Source of the DNA: Spirochaetales bacterium | Lineage (GTDB): Bacteria; Spirochaetota; Spirochaetia; Sphaerochaetales; Sphaerochaetaceae | Assembly (NCBI GenBank): GCA_018433865.1 | Contig: JAHDQJ010000005.1 | Coordinates: forward strand, 1 to 64,000 | Length of the DNA: 64,000 bases | Reading direction: 5' to 3' | Shown: positions 3,842 through 13,180 of the stretch, one piece after another | Layout of the letters: each line of letters starts with the position of its first letter | Position numbering within the stretch: position 1 is the first letter of the stretch | Notes under the pieces: generated by a model | Seen by the model: only the letters and a program-made list of their open reading frames with translations | The model's database searches: none | Told to the model about the DNA's origin: nothing | Translations under genes and position numbers: made by a program

Positions 3842-3886
3842 GGTGATGTATAATGACTCAAAAGAATGTCCATGAGGAGGAAACAC

Positions 3887-6646
3887 GTGAAACGTCTTTC
3901 AAGAAGTCTTATCACGACCCTGCTGGTTGTACTGCTCGCTTTCGTGGTCATCGGTTGCCGAACCACCCCGGAAGTAGAAGTATTCGAACCAGTAACTGAG
4001 ATCACGAAGCCTGAGGCACCAACTCCACCACCAGCGGAAGTTGTTACTCCGCCCGTGGAAGTCGCTCCTGCGGTAGTGACTCCTGAAGCGGCACCGGCAC
4101 CCGCTCCGGCACCGGCACCTGTTGCGGTCGAGCGGAAGGCCCCGACGGCTGACATGGTAGTGAAGTCGAATGACCGGTTCACGGCGTTTGACCTGTATAT
4201 CGCCCACACGAACGACGCGCTTGGCGCGCTTGACGAGGGCATCGGGTATGCGAGGTTGGCGACTGGCGTGAAGTTCGGTCGTTCCCTTACAGACAAGACC
4301 CTGTTGCTTGACGCAGGAAACGTGGCGAGCGGCAGTGCGGTGGTCGAGCAGTTCTACGGCGAGCCCGCTGGCGTGATGCTTGACCTGCTTGGGTACGATG
4401 CGGTGGCTCCGGGACCGGCGGATTTCGCCTATGGTGCCGAGTACCTGATCGAGGCTGCCAAGTATGCCGAGGCGAACACCGGCCTGAAGGTGCTGAGCGC
4501 GAACGTGCTCAATGCCCGTGGCGAATGGGTGTTCCAGCCCTACCAGCTGTACTACTTCAATGACTTTGTGGTGGCAGTGGCTGGCGTGACCGCTCCCCCG
4601 GCGGATGCGGCAGGGCTCTCGTTCCTGAGCCAGGATGTGGTTGACAGTGCGCAGTATGCGGTTGACCAGGTCCGTGCGGTAGCCGATTTCGTGGTTCTGC
4701 TTGGGAACATCGGCAATGTGAACGGGATTACCAGTGAAGTGATTGCGAAGAACATCAAGGGCATCGACCTGATCATCGACGGCAAGGATGCGATGGCACC
4801 GGCGGGCGGCAAGAAGGTCGGCTCCACGGTGATCGTGAATGCCGGCGAGAAGCTGTCGAGCGTTGGCGTGGTTGAGGTGAGCGTGAAGGACGACAAGGTC
4901 GTCAGCGTGACCCCGATCCGGATCAGCGCGGCCGATGTGAACGCTCCTGAGAAGTCCGCCTTGGCGGCATGGGCTGGCATCAGCTATGTTCCTGCCGACG
5001 CAGAGGTGAAGGCCTATGCCGATTCCGTGAAGGCTGCGTACGCGAAGGCGACCGCAAAGCCCGCACCGGCTCCGGCTCCTGCACCCGCTCCTGCAGTGGA
5101 AGTGGCAAAGCCCGCTGTGGCACCCGCTCCGGCAGCTCCTGCGATGCCAGTGGTTGACAAGGACATCATGGTCAAGTCCTATGATGGCGAAAAGAATTTC
5201 AACTTCTATGTCGTGCATACCAATGACGTCCACGGAAGGATCGAAGAGGGTGATGGCATCGGGTATGCCAAGCTCGCCACTCTGGTCAAGATGGGTCGTT
5301 CGGTAACCAACAAGAACCTTCTGCTCGATGCAGGCGATGTTTCGCACGGAACACTCCTCACCAATATGTTCGAAGGTGAGACCAGTGGCGTATTGCTCGA
5401 CATGGTCGGCTACGATGCGGTCGTTCCTGGCAACCATGATTTCAACTATGGCAAGGATCGCTTGATCGAAGCTGCCAAGTTTGCTGAACAGAACACGAAC
5501 ATGCGTGTCCTCGCCGCAAACGTTCTCGATGAGAATGGCAACATGGTGTTCCAGCCTTACCAGCTCTACTATTTCGACGGATTCGTGGTCGGAGTCATCG
5601 GAGCAACCACTCCTGATACCGAGACCAAGACCCACCCGAAGAATGTGCAGGGTCTCTCCTTCATGAGCGACAAGGTTGTCTACGGAGCGCAGGCTCTGGT
5701 CGACCAGGTTCGCGAGCGCGCCGATTACGTGATCGTGCTTGCCCACCTCGGACTTGATGAGGATGGCTCCTATGGAGTGACCAGCAAGTTCGTCGCTGAG
5801 AACGTCAAGGGCATCGACCTGATCGTCGATGGCCACAGCCACACCCTCCTTGAGAACGGCATGGTTGTCGGTGATACCTTGATCGTATCTGCTGGCGAGT
5901 ACATGAAGAGTCTCGGTGTCGTGGAAATCTCGGTTCGCAACGGCAAGGCGACTGGCGAGTATGCGTTCGTGATCCCCGCAAGCGAGGTGAAGGATGCTTC
6001 CACCAGCGATTTGGCCAAGTGGGCCGGAATAACCGAAGTTCCTGCCGATCCGATGGTGACCGCATATGTCGAGTCCCAGAAGAAGAAGCTTGAGGCTATC
6101 ACCCAGGAAGTTGTCGCGTATACTCCTGTCAGGCTTGACGGCGAACGCAACAATGTCCGGACGAAGCCGACCAACCTCGGTAACATGATCGGTGCTGCAA
6201 TGGTCGAAGCGACCGGTGCGGATGCTGCTCTTACCAACGGCGGAGGCATCCGTGCCTCGATCGATGCCGGCGATGTCACTCGCGGAGAGATCATCACGGT
6301 CCTTCCGTTCAACAACACCGTCGTGGTCGTTGAGGTCACCGGACAGGATCTGTATGATGCACTCGAGTGGGGCTATTCACGGCTTCCCGAGAGCAACGGC
6401 GGATTCCCGCAGACCAGCAACATGACCATCGTCTATAGCCGGTTCTCCGATCCTGGCAACAGAATCAAGAGACTGCTGATCAACGGCAAGAGCGTTGACC
6501 GCAATGCGACCTACAAGTTGGCAACAAACGACTTCATGGCTGCTGGCGGAGACGGGTACACGATGCTTGATCGTCCGATCGTGATGTACGGCAGAGGTCT
6601 CGACGAAGTCCTTACCGACTACTTGGTGAAACACAACAAGAAGTAG
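3887..6646 (+). CDS. 5'-nucleotidase-family lipoprotein with duplicated metallophosphoesterase domain
   Basis: Envelope nucleotidase predicted to remove phosphate from nucleotides outside the cytoplasm. The GTG at 3887 is preferred to the ATG at 3866 because GAGGAGG (3874-3880) fits it. A lipoprotein signal ends at VVIGC (Cys about residue 24). An Ala/Pro linker leads to domain 1 (about 101-390), a metallophosphoesterase fold that has lost nearly all ligands (NDALG, DAGNV, PGPADF, DGKDA). After a second Ala/Pro linker, domain 2 (about 438-735) keeps them (NDVHG, DAGDV, PGNHDF, LAHLG, DGHSH). The C-terminal 5'-nucleotidase domain (about 737-919) has NLGNMIGAAM and TNGGGIRAS. At 919 aa it is much longer than usual (about 550). 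Codon use differs between the two halves. It is monocistronic, with a terminator at 6668. Confidence 0.9.
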   Translation: MKRLSRSLITTLLVVLLAFVVIGCRTTPEVEVFEPVTEITKPEAPTPPPAEVVTPPVEVAPAVVTPEAAPAPAPAPAPVAVERKAPTADMVVKSNDRFTAFDLYIAHTNDALGALDEGIGYARLATGVKFGRSLTDKTLLLDAGNVASGSAVVEQFYGEPAGVMLDLLGYDAVAPGPADFAYGAEYLIEAAKYAEANTGLKVLSANVLNARGEWVFQPYQLYYFNDFVVAVAGVTAPPADAAGLSFLSQDVVDSAQYAVDQVRAVADFVVLLGNIGNVNGITSEVIAKNIKGIDLIIDGKDAMAPAGGKKVGSTVIVNAGEKLSSVGVVEVSVKDDKVVSVTPIRISAADVNAPEKSALAAWAGISYVPADAEVKAYADSVKAAYAKATAKPAPAPAPAPAPAVEVAKPAVAPAPAAPAMPVVDKDIMVKSYDGEKNFNFYVVHTNDVHGRIEEGDGIGYAKLATLVKMGRSVTNKNLLLDAGDVSHGTLLTNMFEGETSGVLLDMVGYDAVVPGNHDFNYGKDRLIEAAKFAEQNTNMRVLAANVLDENGNMVFQPYQLYYFDGFVVGVIGATTPDTETKTHPKNVQGLSFMSDKVVYGAQALVDQVRERADYVIVLAHLGLDEDGSYGVTSKFVAENVKGIDLIVDGHSHTLLENGMVVGDTLIVSAGEYMKSLGVVEISVRNGKATGEYAFVIPASEVKDASTSDLAKWAGITEVPADPMVTAYVESQKKKLEAITQEVVAYTPVRLDGERNNVRTKPTNLGNMIGAAMVEATGADAALTNGGGIRASIDAGDVTRGEIITVLPFNNTVVVVEVTGQDLYDALEWGYSRLPESNGGFPQTSNMTIVYSRFSDPGNRIKRLLINGKSVDRNATYKLATNDFMAAGGDGYTMLDRPIVMYGRGLDEVLTDYLVKHNKK

Positions 6647-6667: not shown

Positions 6668-6702
6668 CAGCCGCCCGGTAAAACGGGCGGCTGTTTCAAT
6701 TT
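6668..6702 (+). terminator. intrinsic terminator of the nucleotidase gene
   Basis: Perfect 10-bp stem CAGCCGCCCG / CGGGCGGCTG (6668-6693) with a GTAAAA loop, followed by a T-rich tract. Confidence 0.85.
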
Positions 6703-7662: not shown

Positions 7663-7691
7663 TTGATTATGTTTTTTCTTGGTTCTATAGT
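7663..7691 (+). promoter_or_regulatory. promoter of the RND efflux operon
   Basis: TTGATT (7663-7668), a 17-bp spacer, TATAGT (7686-7691). Predicted start near 7698, giving a leader of about 23 nt with AAAAGGAA before the ATG at 7721. Confidence 0.6.
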
Positions 7692-7720
7692 TGGATGTAC
7701 GCGAATCAAAAGGAATACGT

Positions 7721-9031
7721 ATGAAATCTGTGCGCTTGATCTTCCTGCTTCTGTGGTGTGTGCTCCCGTTGCGTCTCCCTGCTCAGGCATTGGAGCTGAA
7801 CCTTGATGCCTCGATCGAACGGGCACTCACGCACAACCTGTCCATCCGTTCGAGCCTGATCGATGTACATGCGGCACAGCGGGACAAAGACACCTCGTGG
7901 AACCTGTTCTTGCCTGTGGTGCGTGCGACGTTATCCAATTCGGGACGCAACACGGTGTTCCAGGACTCACCAGTAATCAAGCCCATGATCAAGGGCAACT
8001 CAGGGCTGAGCGCAGGTCTCAGCCTTTCGCTCACGTTGAACCCGGCTTTGCAACAGCAATTGCAATCCTTCGACCTGAACTACCAAGTACAGCAGGTGAC
8101 CTATGCTCAGGCTGCCTTGGAGGTCAAGAGAAACGTGACGAAGCTGTTTTTCTATCTGTTGGCAGAACGGGAAAACCTTCTGCTGCTGCAAAAGGGCATC
8201 GAGCTGGCCCAACAGAACCTCGGGAAGGTACGGGTGAGTTTCGAATCGGGTCACACCTCGGAACTCGAGGTCCTCTCTGCAGAGTTGGGTGTGCAGCGGC
8301 TGCTTCCCTCGCTCGGTCAGAGCCGCAACACGTATCATGCGCAGATGATGGCCTTCAAGGTGCTGCTCGGATTGGATCTCGACGAAGAGGTCGAACTGGT
8401 GGGTGTTCTCCCGATGATCGGCTCCACACCAACTCTCGAAGACCTGAATGCACAGGTCGGTCTCTCTCCGAGATTGCGTCTGATCGACCTGAATGTCCTG
8501 AGCTTGGAGAATTCCGCGAAACTGCAACGTCGGTACGACAGCGGACCTTCGATCACGTTCTCGGGGCAATACGGTATCAGCGTGTGGGACGACAATCCGC
8601 TCTATGCTACGGTGGATTTCATCGATACGATCCAGTACACAGTCTCCGTAGCGATCCCCCTCGATGCCCATATTCCAAACTCGCGTGCCCAGGTGTCGCT
8701 TGCGAAGATCGCAGATTCGATGGAAAAGTTGCAGTTGAGCCGAGCACAAACCGTGCAACAGATGAAGCAATCCTTGCGGACACAACTGGCGACCCTGGAG
8801 AATCTCACCGAGCAGATGGATCTGGCCATGGCGAACAGGAACCTTGCCCAGCGTGTGTATGAGATGACCGCAACACAATACGAGAGCGGCTATGCCGATG
8901 CGCTGGCACTTGCGGATGCACGGAACGATCTGTTGGCGGCAGAACAGAACATGCTGTACCTGCAGTACCAGCATGCGAGTGCCAAGGTCGACCTTGCATA
9001 TGATCTCAATCTTGAACCTGACTTTCTTTGA
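7721..9031 (+). CDS. TolC-family outer membrane efflux protein
   Basis: Outer-membrane channel partner of the pump encoded downstream. The ATG at 7721 (MKSVRLIF) with AAAAGGAA is chosen over an earlier in-frame ATG. A cleavable signal peptide (LIFLLLWCVLPLRLPAQA) precedes a mature protein of long alternating helices typical of the family (IERALTHNLSIRSSLIDVHAAQRDKD near the N-terminus; YESGYADALALADARNDLLAAEQNML near the C-terminus). At 436 aa it is normal length. It is the first gene of a four-gene operon; the gap to the adaptor is 26 nt. Confidence 0.9.
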   Translation: MKSVRLIFLLLWCVLPLRLPAQALELNLDASIERALTHNLSIRSSLIDVHAAQRDKDTSWNLFLPVVRATLSNSGRNTVFQDSPVIKPMIKGNSGLSAGLSLSLTLNPALQQQLQSFDLNYQVQQVTYAQAALEVKRNVTKLFFYLLAERENLLLLQKGIELAQQNLGKVRVSFESGHTSELEVLSAELGVQRLLPSLGQSRNTYHAQMMAFKVLLGLDLDEEVELVGVLPMIGSTPTLEDLNAQVGLSPRLRLIDLNVLSLENSAKLQRRYDSGPSITFSGQYGISVWDDNPLYATVDFIDTIQYTVSVAIPLDAHIPNSRAQVSLAKIADSMEKLQLSRAQTVQQMKQSLRTQLATLENLTEQMDLAMANRNLAQRVYEMTATQYESGYADALALADARNDLLAAEQNMLYLQYQHASAKVDLAYDLNLEPDFL

Positions 9032-9057
9032 TGACACGAGAGGAGTAACTTTGCATC

Positions 9058-10005
9058 ATGGCAGATATTGAAGACAAGAAGAAGTTACGTGCAGGCCTGC
9101 TGGTGCTGCTCGTCCTGATACTCGCGGCGATTGCCCTCGTGGTGATCAATCCGTTCGAATCGCTCGGATCCTCGGTGAAGGGGCAAACGGAAGGATCTGC
9201 AATGCCTGAGGAAATCGCCCGGGAAGTCCCGGTACGTACCGCGACTGTCGGGCGGCTCGACCTGCGTGCCTACATCAGGACCAATGGTGATGTCGTGGAT
9301 ACAACATCGATGGATGTGTATCCGGAGGTGACCGGAAAGATCACGTCCATCGGTACTGAAGTCGGCCAACGGGTGGAAAAGGATGCGGTGCTGGGGAAAA
9401 TCGACCCCTCAAGGCCGGGCATGGTGTACCGTGAGACGGCCGTGAAGGCTCCAGTCGCGGGAACGGTCCTGGCAGTCAACTTCACCACCGGATCCTCGGT
9501 CTCCCCGCAAGCCGTGCTGTTCAGGCTGGGCTTGCTCGGAGAACCGGAGGTGGAGGTTTCGGTACCTGAGCGCCATATCGGGAAGGTTGGTCTGGGATCG
9601 AAGGCAGAGGCCACGTTCGTCGCATATCCGGATATCCTGTTCGAAGGCGAGGTAGTGCGACTTGCTCCCACCCTCAACCCAGCGACCAGGACCATGAAGG
9701 TGGGTATCGCGCTCACCGACCCCGATTCCCTGGTCAAGCCGGGCATGTTCCCCTCCGTGAAGCTCTACACCGAATCCATCACAGGAGCACTGGCGATCGA
9801 ACGTCCTGCGATCCAATACGAGGGCAACCAAGCCTACGTGTTCGTCATCGACTCGCGTGGCGTGGCCCGAAAGAGGGCAGTGACCATCGGACTGGAAGTC
9901 GACGATCATGCACAGATCCTTGAGGGATTGGCAGAAGGAGAGACCTTGGTGACCCAGGGGCAATCGCTATTGACCGACGGATCAATTGTCCGCGTTGTCG
10001 ACTGA
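9058..10005 (+). CDS. RND efflux periplasmic adaptor (membrane fusion protein)
   Basis: Bridges the RND pump and the TolC-like channel in the periplasm. One N-terminal membrane anchor (about residues 12-30, LLVLLVLILAAIALVVI) leads into the barrel-sandwich (lipoyl-like) halves: VYPEVTGKITSIGTEVGQRVEKD and VKAPVAGTVLAVNFTTGSSV. A beta-barrel segment follows (VEGEV-type FEGEVVRLAP, ATRTMKVGI) and a membrane-proximal domain. There is almost no alpha-helical hairpin between the lipoyl halves, so this is a short adaptor of 315 aa. It sits 13 nt before the pump gene. Confidence 0.9.
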   Translation: MADIEDKKKLRAGLLVLLVLILAAIALVVINPFESLGSSVKGQTEGSAMPEEIAREVPVRTATVGRLDLRAYIRTNGDVVDTTSMDVYPEVTGKITSIGTEVGQRVEKDAVLGKIDPSRPGMVYRETAVKAPVAGTVLAVNFTTGSSVSPQAVLFRLGLLGEPEVEVSVPERHIGKVGLGSKAEATFVAYPDILFEGEVVRLAPTLNPATRTMKVGIALTDPDSLVKPGMFPSVKLYTESITGALAIERPAIQYEGNQAYVFVIDSRGVARKRAVTIGLEVDDHAQILEGLAEGETLVTQGQSLLTDGSIVRVVD

Positions 10006-10018
10006 GCAGGAAACACCG

Positions 10019-13000
10019 ATGAGTCTAACCCATACAATCGTACATCGGCCGACGACCATCATCGTCATCTACCTTCTGCTCATTTCCTTGGCATTGGTGG
10101 TACTCCCGATGCTTCCGGTCGAGCTCTTTCCTGAGATGAGCCTGCCGATGATGGTCGTGTTCACCTCATACGATGGCGCAAGCCCCGAAACGGTCGAGCA
10201 GACGGTCACGAAGCGGATCGAGAGCGTCATCTCCAATGTCGGGGGCATCAACACCCTCTCATCCTCTTCGTCGGAGGGGATGAGCATGGTGATGATCCAA
10301 TTCAACTACGGTACTGACCTGGATGAAGCTTCGCGGGCAATCGATGACAACCTGAACCTCATACGGGACATCATGCCTGGGGGGGCGGCATCTCCTACCA
10401 TCTTCAAGCTGAATACGAACATGATGCCTGTGATGAACATCGCGGTGATCGGCTCGAACGGGCAGGATGCCAACGTGCTCAGGCGTATCACGAAGGAGCA
10501 GGTCCAAAACCGCCTGGAGCGTGTCCCCGGAGTCTCCTCGACCAGCCTGAACGGTGGGCAGGACCCCTATGTACTGGTTGCAGTGGACCAGAATCGGTTG
10601 GATGCCTACGGCATCACGCTCTCACAGATAGCCCAATCGCTGTACCCGCAGAACTACCAGATCGGTGCCGGTTCCATCACCGAGGGTGATGTCAATTACC
10701 TCGTGCGTACCGATGGAGAATTCACCTCCGTCGATGAGATACGGGAAACGCTCATCAGTACCATACCGACGTATGACAGGATGGGGAACCTGGTCTCCAC
10801 GACCCGCATCACCCTTGAGGATATCGCCGAGGTATCCCGGGCGTACAAGGAGGCCTCCTCCCGCGTCTATGTCAATGGTGAGAACGGTGTCTATCTCTCA
10901 GTCTCCAAGGAATCGGATGCGAATAGCGTCCAGGTGGCGAAATCGGTGCGCGAGGCGATCGGAGAGTTGAACGGACAATTGCCGGACGGTGTGTCCCTCC
11001 ATGTGACGATCGACACCACGACCATGATCGACAGCACGATGCGGACGGTCTACCAATCGCTTTTCTACGGGATGGTGTTGGTGATGTTGGTGCTGTTCAT
11101 CTTCCTCAGGAGCCTCAAGTCCACATTCATCATCGGCATTTCCATCCCGATCAGCCTGTTGGTCACCATCCTGGTGATGTTCTTTCTCGACTATACGCTG
11201 AACCTGATGACCCTCACGGGGCTGATCCTCGGACTTGGCATGACCGTAGACTGTTCGATCGTGGTCCTGGAGAACATCTTCCGCTACCGTGAGCGCGGTT
11301 CCAAGCTCAAGACCGCTGCGTTGCTTGGTACGAAGGAGATGATCGTTGCCATCTCGGCATCGACACTCACCACCGTGTGCGTCTTCGTCCCGATCGTCAT
11401 GCTGCGCAGCAATCTCGAGATGCTCGGGGAGATTCTCGTACCCATGGCAGGTACCATCATCATCTCGCTCCTTTCATCACTGGTGGTCTCTATCACCCTC
11501 ATTCCCGTCCTCTCCAGTTCGTATGTGAACATCTACACCAGGAAACAGAAACCGCTCAGGATGCGTGTGCTCAGATGGGTCGATGATCACATGGAACGGG
11601 CGTTCGAGGCTCTCGATCGCTCCTACAAGCGTGTGCTCGCCGTGTGCATCGACCATCGGTGGCTGACAATGCTCCTGATCGTCCTGATGCTTGTACTGAC
11701 TTTCCAGGCCTTCGACACCATGCACACGACGCTGTATCCTGCGATGACCGAAAGCTCCGTATCGTTGACGGTAACGATGCCCCAGGGGACTACCTTGGAA
11801 TCCACCGAATCGGTGTTGCGTGAGCTTGAGCGTGTCGCGCGCAGCGAAGTCCGTGGGTATCAGGATATCATCGTCTCCACCGGCGGCGGCGGAATCTTCG
11901 GTACCGGCGGCACCAACAGCGGTACCTTGCAGATATCGCTCGGAGAGGCGAAGGATCAGGTGGATGACATGTTTGCCGTGCAAGAACTATTGCGTCGGCA
12001 CTTCCACCGGTTCCCAGCGGCTTCCTTCTCCTTCTCCACGATGTCCATAGGATTGGGGAACCTGAACCCGGTCGATGTGATCATCAAGTCGGATGACCTT
12101 GCTCTCGCCGTAGCGACGGCGAAGGAGCTCAAGGCGCTCATCGACGAGCATGTGCCGCAAGTGACGGAGCCGACAGTCGATTTCGACGAGGGACTTCCGG
12201 AGATGCGGATCGTCATTGATCGTGAACGGGCCTACGCATACGGACTTTCCATGCAGGCGGTCGCGATGGAGATCAGCAACAGTGTCAACGGCAGGACTGC
12301 AACGCAGTTGAAAGAGGGTGGCACCGACACCGATGTGGTGGTGATGCTGCGCAAGGAGGATCGTGCCGATCTTGCAGATCTGGAGAAACTGTTCGTCCGC
12401 AACCCGATGGGCGAGAAGATACCGCTGTCTGCCTTCGCATCGGTGGAACGTTCGACAGGACCCGTGTCAATCAACCGTGAGGACGAGATGCGTGCCGTGC
12501 ATGTGACCGGAGGTTTGGCAACCGGCTTCACCAGTTCGCTCGCTGAGAGTGCGATCAGGACATTGATCGAGGAAAGATTGACGAAGAACGACGAAGTGAT
12601 CATCGAGTTCGGCGGCGATATCGCAGACATGGACGAGATGTTCACGCATATCGGAATCATCATGATTCTCGCGATCGTACTGGTGTTCGGGGTCATGGCC
12701 AGTCTCTTCGAATCATTCAAGAATCCCTTCATCATCCTGCTCTCCATGCCGTTGATGTTGATCGGAATCGTGGGCATCTACGTGATCACGGGTGAGGCTT
12801 TCAGCCTGATCAGCGCGATCGGAGCGGTCATTCTCGCGGGAATCGTCGTGAACAATGGGATCGTCTTGGTCGATTACATAAACCTGCTGCGGAGGCGGGG
12901 CATGGATATCCGCAGCGCATGCATCGAAGCAGGTGGGAACCGCCTGAAGCCGATACTCATGACCAGCCTGACGACCATCTTCGGCATGATTCCCCTCGCA

Positions 13001-13180
13001 TTCTTCGGAGGCGCAGGCGCAGAACAGATCCAGCCGATCGGACAGACTATTGTCGGGGGCATGGTGGTGAGCACGCTGATGACGATCTTTGTCACGCCGG
13101 TGCTGTACCGGCTGTTCAACAGCGATCGGAAGCGGCGGGATATCGAGAGCGTCGCACGATGGGCATCACAGGAGAACTGA
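10019..13180 (+). CDS. RND-family efflux transporter permease
   Basis: Proton-driven inner-membrane exporter; the substrate is unknown (drug, bile-like or lipid export are all possible). The ATG at 10019 (MSLTHTIVHRPTTI) is used; the first helix (IVIYLLLISLALVVLPML) follows at once. It has two halves, each with a large periplasmic loop and six helices. TM4 carries the family Asp in GLGMTVDCSIVVLENI, and the second half repeats GIVVNNGIVLVDYINLLRRRG. At 1053 aa it is typical. It is preceded by the adaptor and followed one base later by a PII-like gene. Confidence 0.93.
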   Translation: MSLTHTIVHRPTTIIVIYLLLISLALVVLPMLPVELFPEMSLPMMVVFTSYDGASPETVEQTVTKRIESVISNVGGINTLSSSSSEGMSMVMIQFNYGTDLDEASRAIDDNLNLIRDIMPGGAASPTIFKLNTNMMPVMNIAVIGSNGQDANVLRRITKEQVQNRLERVPGVSSTSLNGGQDPYVLVAVDQNRLDAYGITLSQIAQSLYPQNYQIGAGSITEGDVNYLVRTDGEFTSVDEIRETLISTIPTYDRMGNLVSTTRITLEDIAEVSRAYKEASSRVYVNGENGVYLSVSKESDANSVQVAKSVREAIGELNGQLPDGVSLHVTIDTTTMIDSTMRTVYQSLFYGMVLVMLVLFIFLRSLKSTFIIGISIPISLLVTILVMFFLDYTLNLMTLTGLILGLGMTVDCSIVVLENIFRYRERGSKLKTAALLGTKEMIVAISASTLTTVCVFVPIVMLRSNLEMLGEILVPMAGTIIISLLSSLVVSITLIPVLSSSYVNIYTRKQKPLRMRVLRWVDDHMERAFEALDRSYKRVLAVCIDHRWLTMLLIVLMLVLTFQAFDTMHTTLYPAMTESSVSLTVTMPQGTTLESTESVLRELERVARSEVRGYQDIIVSTGGGGIFGTGGTNSGTLQISLGEAKDQVDDMFAVQELLRRHFHRFPAASFSFSTMSIGLGNLNPVDVIIKSDDLALAVATAKELKALIDEHVPQVTEPTVDFDEGLPEMRIVIDRERAYAYGLSMQAVAMEISNSVNGRTATQLKEGGTDTDVVVMLRKEDRADLADLEKLFVRNPMGEKIPLSAFASVERSTGPVSINREDEMRAVHVTGGLATGFTSSLAESAIRTLIEERLTKNDEVIIEFGGDIADMDEMFTHIGIIMILAIVLVFGVMASLFESFKNPFIILLSMPLMLIGIVGIYVITGEAFSLISAIGAVILAGIVVNNGIVLVDYINLLRRRGMDIRSACIEAGGNRLKPILMTSLTTIFGMIPLAFFGGAGAEQIQPIGQTIVGGMVVSTLMTIFVTPVLYRLFNSDRKRRDIESVARWASQEN

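Follow-up and report, generated by a model that had tools for sequence, protein, structure and literature searches.

The lipoprotein gene and its surroundings

The window (the whole stretch of DNA analysed here, 64,000 nucleotides) is part of contig C38 of genome G000 (2.9 Mb), a Spirochaetales bacterium of the family Sphaerochaetaceae. Close to its left end lies a gene whose reading frame is open throughout, with three in-frame start codons (ATG 3866, ATG 3872 and GTG 3887). The relatives share a conserved start, MRRKHVKRLS, which aligns with ATG 3872; hence, this codon is probably the best start, giving a protein of 924 aa, and the GTG 3887 of the original prediction probably lies five codons late. 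A signal sequence with a lipobox (LLAFVVIGC) can be read directly from the sequence, and the lipobox is common to the relatives: the product is a predicted bacterial lipoprotein. The features at this locus are as follows.

3872-6646, plus strand: lipoprotein gene, 924 aa, in the order signal/lipobox, linker, D1, linker, D2, 5'-nucleotidase C-domain (open frame, start aligned with relatives, orthologues at a syntenic locus)
3947-3958, plus strand: lipobox VIGC, with the predicted lipidated Cys at 3956-3958 (sequence; VISC, FIGC or LVGC at this place in relatives)
3956-4135, plus strand: N-terminal linker of 60 aa, rich in Pro, Ala, Glu and Val (27% Pro, 18% Ala)
4136-5056, plus strand: D1, catalytically dead metallophosphoesterase domain (profile match of 470 bits at 4136-5068; motif columns; Fisher p 7.8e-5)
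4208-4225, plus strand: D1 motif I, TNDALG, Asp kept and His lost (motif reading)
4307-4324, plus strand: D1 motif II, LDAGNV, ligand Asp replaced by Asn, as in 19 of 22 dead domains (motif reading)
4409-4426, plus strand: D1 motif III, PGPADF, Asn and catalytic His lost (motif reading)
4700-4714, plus strand: D1 motif IV, LGNIG, His replaced by Asn and the next loop shortened (motif reading)
4778-4792, plus strand: D1 motif V, DGKDA, both His lost (motif reading)
5042-5161, plus strand: D1-D2 linker of 40 aa, rich in Pro and Ala (28% Pro, 40% Ala)
5162-6088, plus strand: D2, live metallophosphoesterase domain with a complete metal set (Metallophos PF00149, E 2.6e-13; DHDNHDHHH; UshA 1ush)
6113-6571, plus strand: 5'-nucleotidase C-terminal, substrate-binding domain (PF02872, E 3.8e-45, residues 743-895 in the 919-aa reading)
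6668-6693, plus strand: terminator-like hairpin 3' of the gene, a 10-pair stem with 9 G-C pairs (a consensus match only, equally frequent in shuffled sequence)

Two tandem metallophosphoesterase domains had been predicted here from ten motifs, and all ten are present; the Ala/Pro linkers said to flank the first of them, D1, are there as well. D1 itself had been placed at 4180-5060. A domain does lie there, but its exact extent is slightly wider, as listed above.

The uridine kinase gene, a YidD-like gene and the lipoprotein gene follow each other in the same order in the window and in nine further genomes (G003, G022, G004, G024, G023, G006, G025, G148 and G134), and in G123 the YidD-like neighbour also stands beside the lipoprotein; the YidD label is a reading of the sequence, not a database match. 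Downstream in the window, positions 7691-13180 hold TolC-like, membrane-fusion and RND efflux genes, with nothing that ties them to the lipoprotein. One transpeptidase is encoded in genome G000, so that the binding of cell wall by D1, suggested in the original prediction, is not to be dismissed with an argument from a lineage without a cell wall.

D2 carries the motifs TNDVHG (5219), LDAGDV (5324), PGNHDF (5426), LAHLG (5738) and DGHSH (5828), and its residues at the nine motif columns make up the full metal and catalytic set, in line with the original prediction. Compared with solved structures, D2 and the C-domain align over their whole length with UshA (1ush, E 7.3e-52) and with CD73 chains (E about 1e-41). 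Judged by sequence, they form an ordinary UshA-type 5'-nucleotidase.

Ligands, fold and selection in D1

An alignment of D1 with D2 over 316 columns gives 49.7% identity. The residues of D1 at the nine motif columns are DLNPADNKA, and the first Asp is the sole metal or catalytic position left, exactly as predicted. The Asp of PGPADF also remains; from established knowledge of UshA, we take it not to be a metal ligand. Of the columns at which 22 live domains all agree, 7 are ligand columns, and D1 has retained 1 of these vs. 34 of the 37 others (the Fisher p given above); four further dead domains show the same pattern in this test (p 0.0003-0.004). Ligand loss as a by-product of average divergence is thereby rejected. 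The active-site loops are cut as well: the loop next to motifs III-IV counts 7-11 residues in all 22 dead domains vs. 15 in live ones (12 in one live domain), and the loop next to motifs IV-V counts 6-8 residues in 22 of 22 vs. 9-11. Even with a cut-off as loose as E<=1, Pfam yields no Metallophos match to D1. No PF02872 match lies 3' of D1, where the linker and D2 come next.

A profile of the dead family matches UshA among PDB sequences (E 3.6e-18). An AF2 model of D1, built from seven sequences, is of modest confidence (pLDDT 58, pTM 0.65), with residues 53-134 poor; in Foldseek, its best neighbours are UshA-type 5'-nucleotidases (UshA 1oie, E 8.5e-12, probability 1.00, TM 0.53). Profile and model both point to a retained metallophosphoesterase fold. 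The model of the full-length lipoprotein (pLDDT 32) is too low in confidence for the domain packing to be read.

No stop or frameshift was seen among the intact lipoprotein relatives, which excludes decay of D1 by such lesions there. In pairs that are not saturated at synonymous sites, dN/dS is 0.05-0.12 for D1 and 0.03-0.12 for D2: 0.050 and 0.028 for G149-G148, 0.117 and 0.035 for G024-G127, 0.080 and 0.080 for G004-G131, and 0.049 and 0.037 for G006-G025, respectively. Synonymous distances reach about 0.9, with dN/dS well under 1. Relative to D2, D1 is at most mildly relaxed. The pairs that include the D1 of the window are saturated at synonymous sites, and for this copy, the evidence therefore consists of amino-acid identity (83% to G003, 76% to G022) and open frames throughout. 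The ligand loss is shared by the orthologues; together with the open frames and the low dN/dS, this firmly argues for D1 being a pseudoenzyme under purifying selection, as had been proposed from the window.

Tandem copies and a second host protein

The search covered 139 genomes of the Sphaerochaetaceae and 395 of the class, and motifs were read in the fetched loci. Dead-live lipoproteins occur in at least 23 genomes, Sphaerochaetaceae in every case. When the dead domain is counted in either the lipoprotein or the barrel-like protein described below, it is present in about ten genera (g1, g2, g3, g4, g5, g6, g18 and g21, truncated in g16 and as a single-domain lipoprotein in g17). In the class genomes outside the Sphaerochaetaceae, all matches read keep their ligands, except for two degenerate ones with different losses, NSDNLEHHP in the second gene of L034 and DHDNNDHFH in L152. 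The former (L034:2942-4405, genome G042) is the second of two adjacent full-length 5'-nucleotidase genes and has kept its C-domain. In other families of the class (L141, L143-L148), split 5'-nucleotidases are found, with the live metallophosphoesterase domain and the C-domain as separate adjoining ORFs.

The number of dead domains varies: the live enzyme is preceded by a single one in G022, G024 and G129, by two in G004, G127, G145, G148, G150 and G123, and by three in G149. Copies in the same gene are nearly identical in DNA (869/870 bases in G004; 870/870 in G145, G148 and G150; 869-870/870 in G149; 899/900 in G123), those of G127 being less alike (823/870). The genomes with several copies mostly consist of one to three contigs, closed genomes included, and the arrays are therefore not a short-read artefact. 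In G003, two dead copies, 98% identical, lie on either side of an N gap. In G001 and G002, both of the genus of the window, contigs break off within D1, at the same codon in both; the following contig of G001 restarts near the end of D1, and the middle of the domain is missing. Draft contigs that start or end inside D1 are G001:C67, G001:C21, G002:C87, G007:C2 and G005:C20. Such breaks are as expected for unresolved near-identical tandem copies, and the single D1 of the window may itself be a collapsed array.

Other arrangements are found in the same slot. Unrelated modules of about 100 aa occupy it in G013 (one), G021 and G011 (two each) and G085 (at least eight); the loci with such modules before a live 5'-nucleotidase are L105 (G085), L020, L021 and L028. 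In L098 (G123), the linkers are long (EKAAA)n stretches, predicted to be rigid helices, in place of Pro/Ala. G134 holds the order dead-live-C-live-C within one frame. G023 has a recent, near-identical live-live tandem with no second C-domain, in which the first copy carries Glu for Asn at one metal position, possibly an early stage toward a dead domain. Two single-domain lipoproteins without C-domain, L109 (G018) and L110 (G094), read DHGDSDHHH (partly degenerate) and DSNESDNGE (fully degenerate); they branch separately from the other dead domains and probably represent an independent loss.

The dead domain was also found in a second, barrel-like protein, in G000 (contig C24), G001, G002, G003, G005, G007, G022, G036, G126, G019, G034, G122 and G123. 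In this protein, the dead domain lies in the linker that joins an N-terminal domain to a C-terminal half, which measures about 400-900 aa; the copies with the dead domain carry no 5'-nucleotidase. The copy of G000 (L041:2932-7665, 1578 aa), in which Pfam finds no domain, lies between a TtcA-like gene and mutL, as does every copy that was read with its flanks (G000, G001, G003, G007, G022 and G019), these neighbour names being readings of the sequence. Homologues without a metallophosphoesterase domain stand at the same place in G021, G024 and G006, in G023 (mutL side) and in G129 (both sides). In the C-terminal half, the beta-strand alternation reaches z 2.9-7.3 vs. -1.5 to -0.5 for D1, D2 plus C-domain and RND, a signal that TolC also gives (3.9). 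The last residue is Phe or Tyr in most copies, though not in all; no match to this half was found among PDB sequences. The pattern is suggestive of a putative outer-membrane beta-barrel. In G123, the barrel-like part lies in an overlapping, adjoining frame, and this gene copy may be frameshifted or split.

In a tree of 46 domains, the 22 dead ones all lie to one side of a weakly supported branch (67/94). They form three sub-clades: one of lipoprotein copies from Sphaerochaeta and its relatives, and two with copies from both proteins, in genus g18 and in the group of the window. The tests reject a tree in which all barrel-protein copies form one clade (p-AU 0.011, an indicative value as the groups were chosen after the first tree), and also one in which the window-type D1 joins its own D2 while the barrel-protein copies stay outside (p-AU 0.0007); the barrel-protein copy of G007 falls among the lipoprotein copies. 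A single vertical insertion into the barrel-like protein is hence rejected, with the same reservation on the choice of groups; the tests indicate that the dead domain either entered this protein repeatedly or was exchanged between the two. A lineage-by-lineage grouping of dead with live domains is not rejected (p-AU 0.42-0.58). One loss of catalysis and several losses are thus both compatible with the tree.

Possible roles of the dead domain

The reading that we prefer, with modest conviction, is that D1 is a folded spacer, a stalk module demoted from an enzyme domain. The N-terminal metallophosphoesterase domain of a UshA-type lipoprotein would have been duplicated in frame without the C-domain. 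Such a duplicate, deprived of its substrate-binding partner, would have been of little use as a nucleotidase, and it could have lost its ligands and active-site loops without losing the fold. When isolated, the N-domain of E. coli CpdB cleaves C-domain-dependent substrates much less, although some others are still hydrolysed (PMC7922932); hence, the use of a duplicate without C-domain would be reduced but not necessarily zero. On the presumed surface or in the periplasm, D1 and its Pro/Ala linkers would hold D2 and the C-domain away from the lipid anchor, and recombination between near-identical copies would lengthen or shorten the stalk. Repeated copying would have brought the same module into the linker of the barrel-like protein, between the N-terminal domain and the barrel-like half.

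A role as spacer or in docking fits the data better than the binding of nucleotide, of cell wall or of the catalytic half put forward in the original prediction, none of which is supported, because D1 has no C-domain of its own, its loops are cut, its copy number varies, unrelated modules can substitute for it, and its second host is free of nucleotidase. Two observations count against a bare spacer: purifying selection acts near the level of the live domain, and the dead domains show fair conservation of Asp in the first ligand column and of Asn in the third and fourth. These columns may represent a retained binding site.

The main rival to a spacer function, rather unlikely on the present evidence, is docking. 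The dead domains of the lipoprotein and of the barrel-like protein would bind each other or share a partner and, in this way, form an outer-membrane complex for nucleotide scavenging. Six genomes (G000, G001, G003, G007, G022 and G123) do carry the dead family in both proteins, the dead domains cluster by lineage across the two (the rejected groupings and the G007 copy in the tree), and the dN/dS of about 0.1 also speaks for this reading. However, lineage clustering would also arise from gene conversion or repeated copying alone, and G024 and G129 have dead domains in the lipoprotein and none in the protein between ttcA and mutL, so the pairing is not obligatory. A broader formulation, which we consider possible but rather doubtful, describes the dead domain as a mobile cassette of variable length that was duplicated, homogenised and copied at least twice into the barrel-like protein, and that may dock the two.

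Regulation in cis is improbable. Many pseudoenzymes act as cis regulators, and in the lipoproteins, the dead domain is always N-terminal of the live one, so D1 might regulate or stabilise the catalytic half as an allosteric pseudoenzyme, or bind nucleotide and feed it to D2. The variable copy number, the substitution by unrelated modules in other genera, the presence of D1 in nucleotidase-free proteins, the missing C-domain for base binding and the shortened loops all speak against such roles.

A different chemistry or an alternative metal site in D1 is very improbable. The comparatively conserved Asp and Asn columns would favour it, but no His ligand is left, positions 43 and 252 vary more than most columns of the dead domains (88th and 90th entropy percentile), and the replacement residues differ between sub-clades (DLNPADNKA, DNNAIQDNS, NKNAGDNAD). 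The other residues of D1 did not reveal a replacement metal site, although a weak one is conceivable. That D1 is a decaying duplicate or an assembly artefact, as mostly draft host genomes and the contig breaks inside D1 of near relatives might suggest, is hardly conceivable given its occurrence in one- and two-contig genomes and in about ten genera, its open frames and a dN/dS well under 1.

Several known systems can be compared with the lipoprotein. In UshA/CD73-type 5'-nucleotidases (PF00149 plus PF02872), to whose N-domain D1 is homologous, nothing corresponds to the extra ligand-dead metallophosphoesterase domain that stands in front in the lipoprotein, without a C-domain of its own. Nucleotidases of the YfkN / PRK09419 type, to which NCBIfam matches were obtained, also have more than one metallophosphoesterase unit per exported chain, but their units are complete, catalytic and equipped with C-domains, whereas the first unit of the lipoprotein is dead and lacks one, and the NCBIfam scores are far under the cut-offs. 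The B-subunits of eukaryotic replicative DNA polymerases, like D1, keep the calcineurin-like fold without the metal ligands and have a structural role; D1, on the contrary, belongs to an unrelated lineage and is exported, lipid-anchored, repeated in tandem and shuffled into a second protein. Tandem-repeat surface stalks, such as those of Ig-like domains, share the near-identical in-frame repeats between anchor and head, the variable number and the Pro-rich linkers, but here, the repeat, of about 300 residues, was once an enzyme and is a homologue of its head.

The UshA-type enzyme, the inactive metallophosphoesterase domain and the repeat stalk are thus each already known. New is their combination, in which a onetime enzyme has been multiplied as almost identical DNA copies and has moved into another protein; no description of such a case was found in the open-licence literature searched. 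No paper pairing "pseudoenzyme" with "metallophosphoesterase" was found there either, a weak sign of novelty given the limited scope. A survey of ushA lists Sphaerochaeta with ushA-like genes; the words tandem, lipoprotein and inactive are absent from it.

A pseudoenzyme is usually taken to regulate a live sister; the pattern described here suggests instead demotion to a repeatable construction module. Living relatives present a series, from live-live (G023) through one, two and three dead domains before the live one to insertion into another protein, that allows the loss of catalysis, the retention of the fold, tandem expansion and module shuffling to be studied jointly. Pfam is blind to the dead domain, which leads to wrong descriptions of such proteins, and this domain is a place where short-read assemblies break and may collapse.
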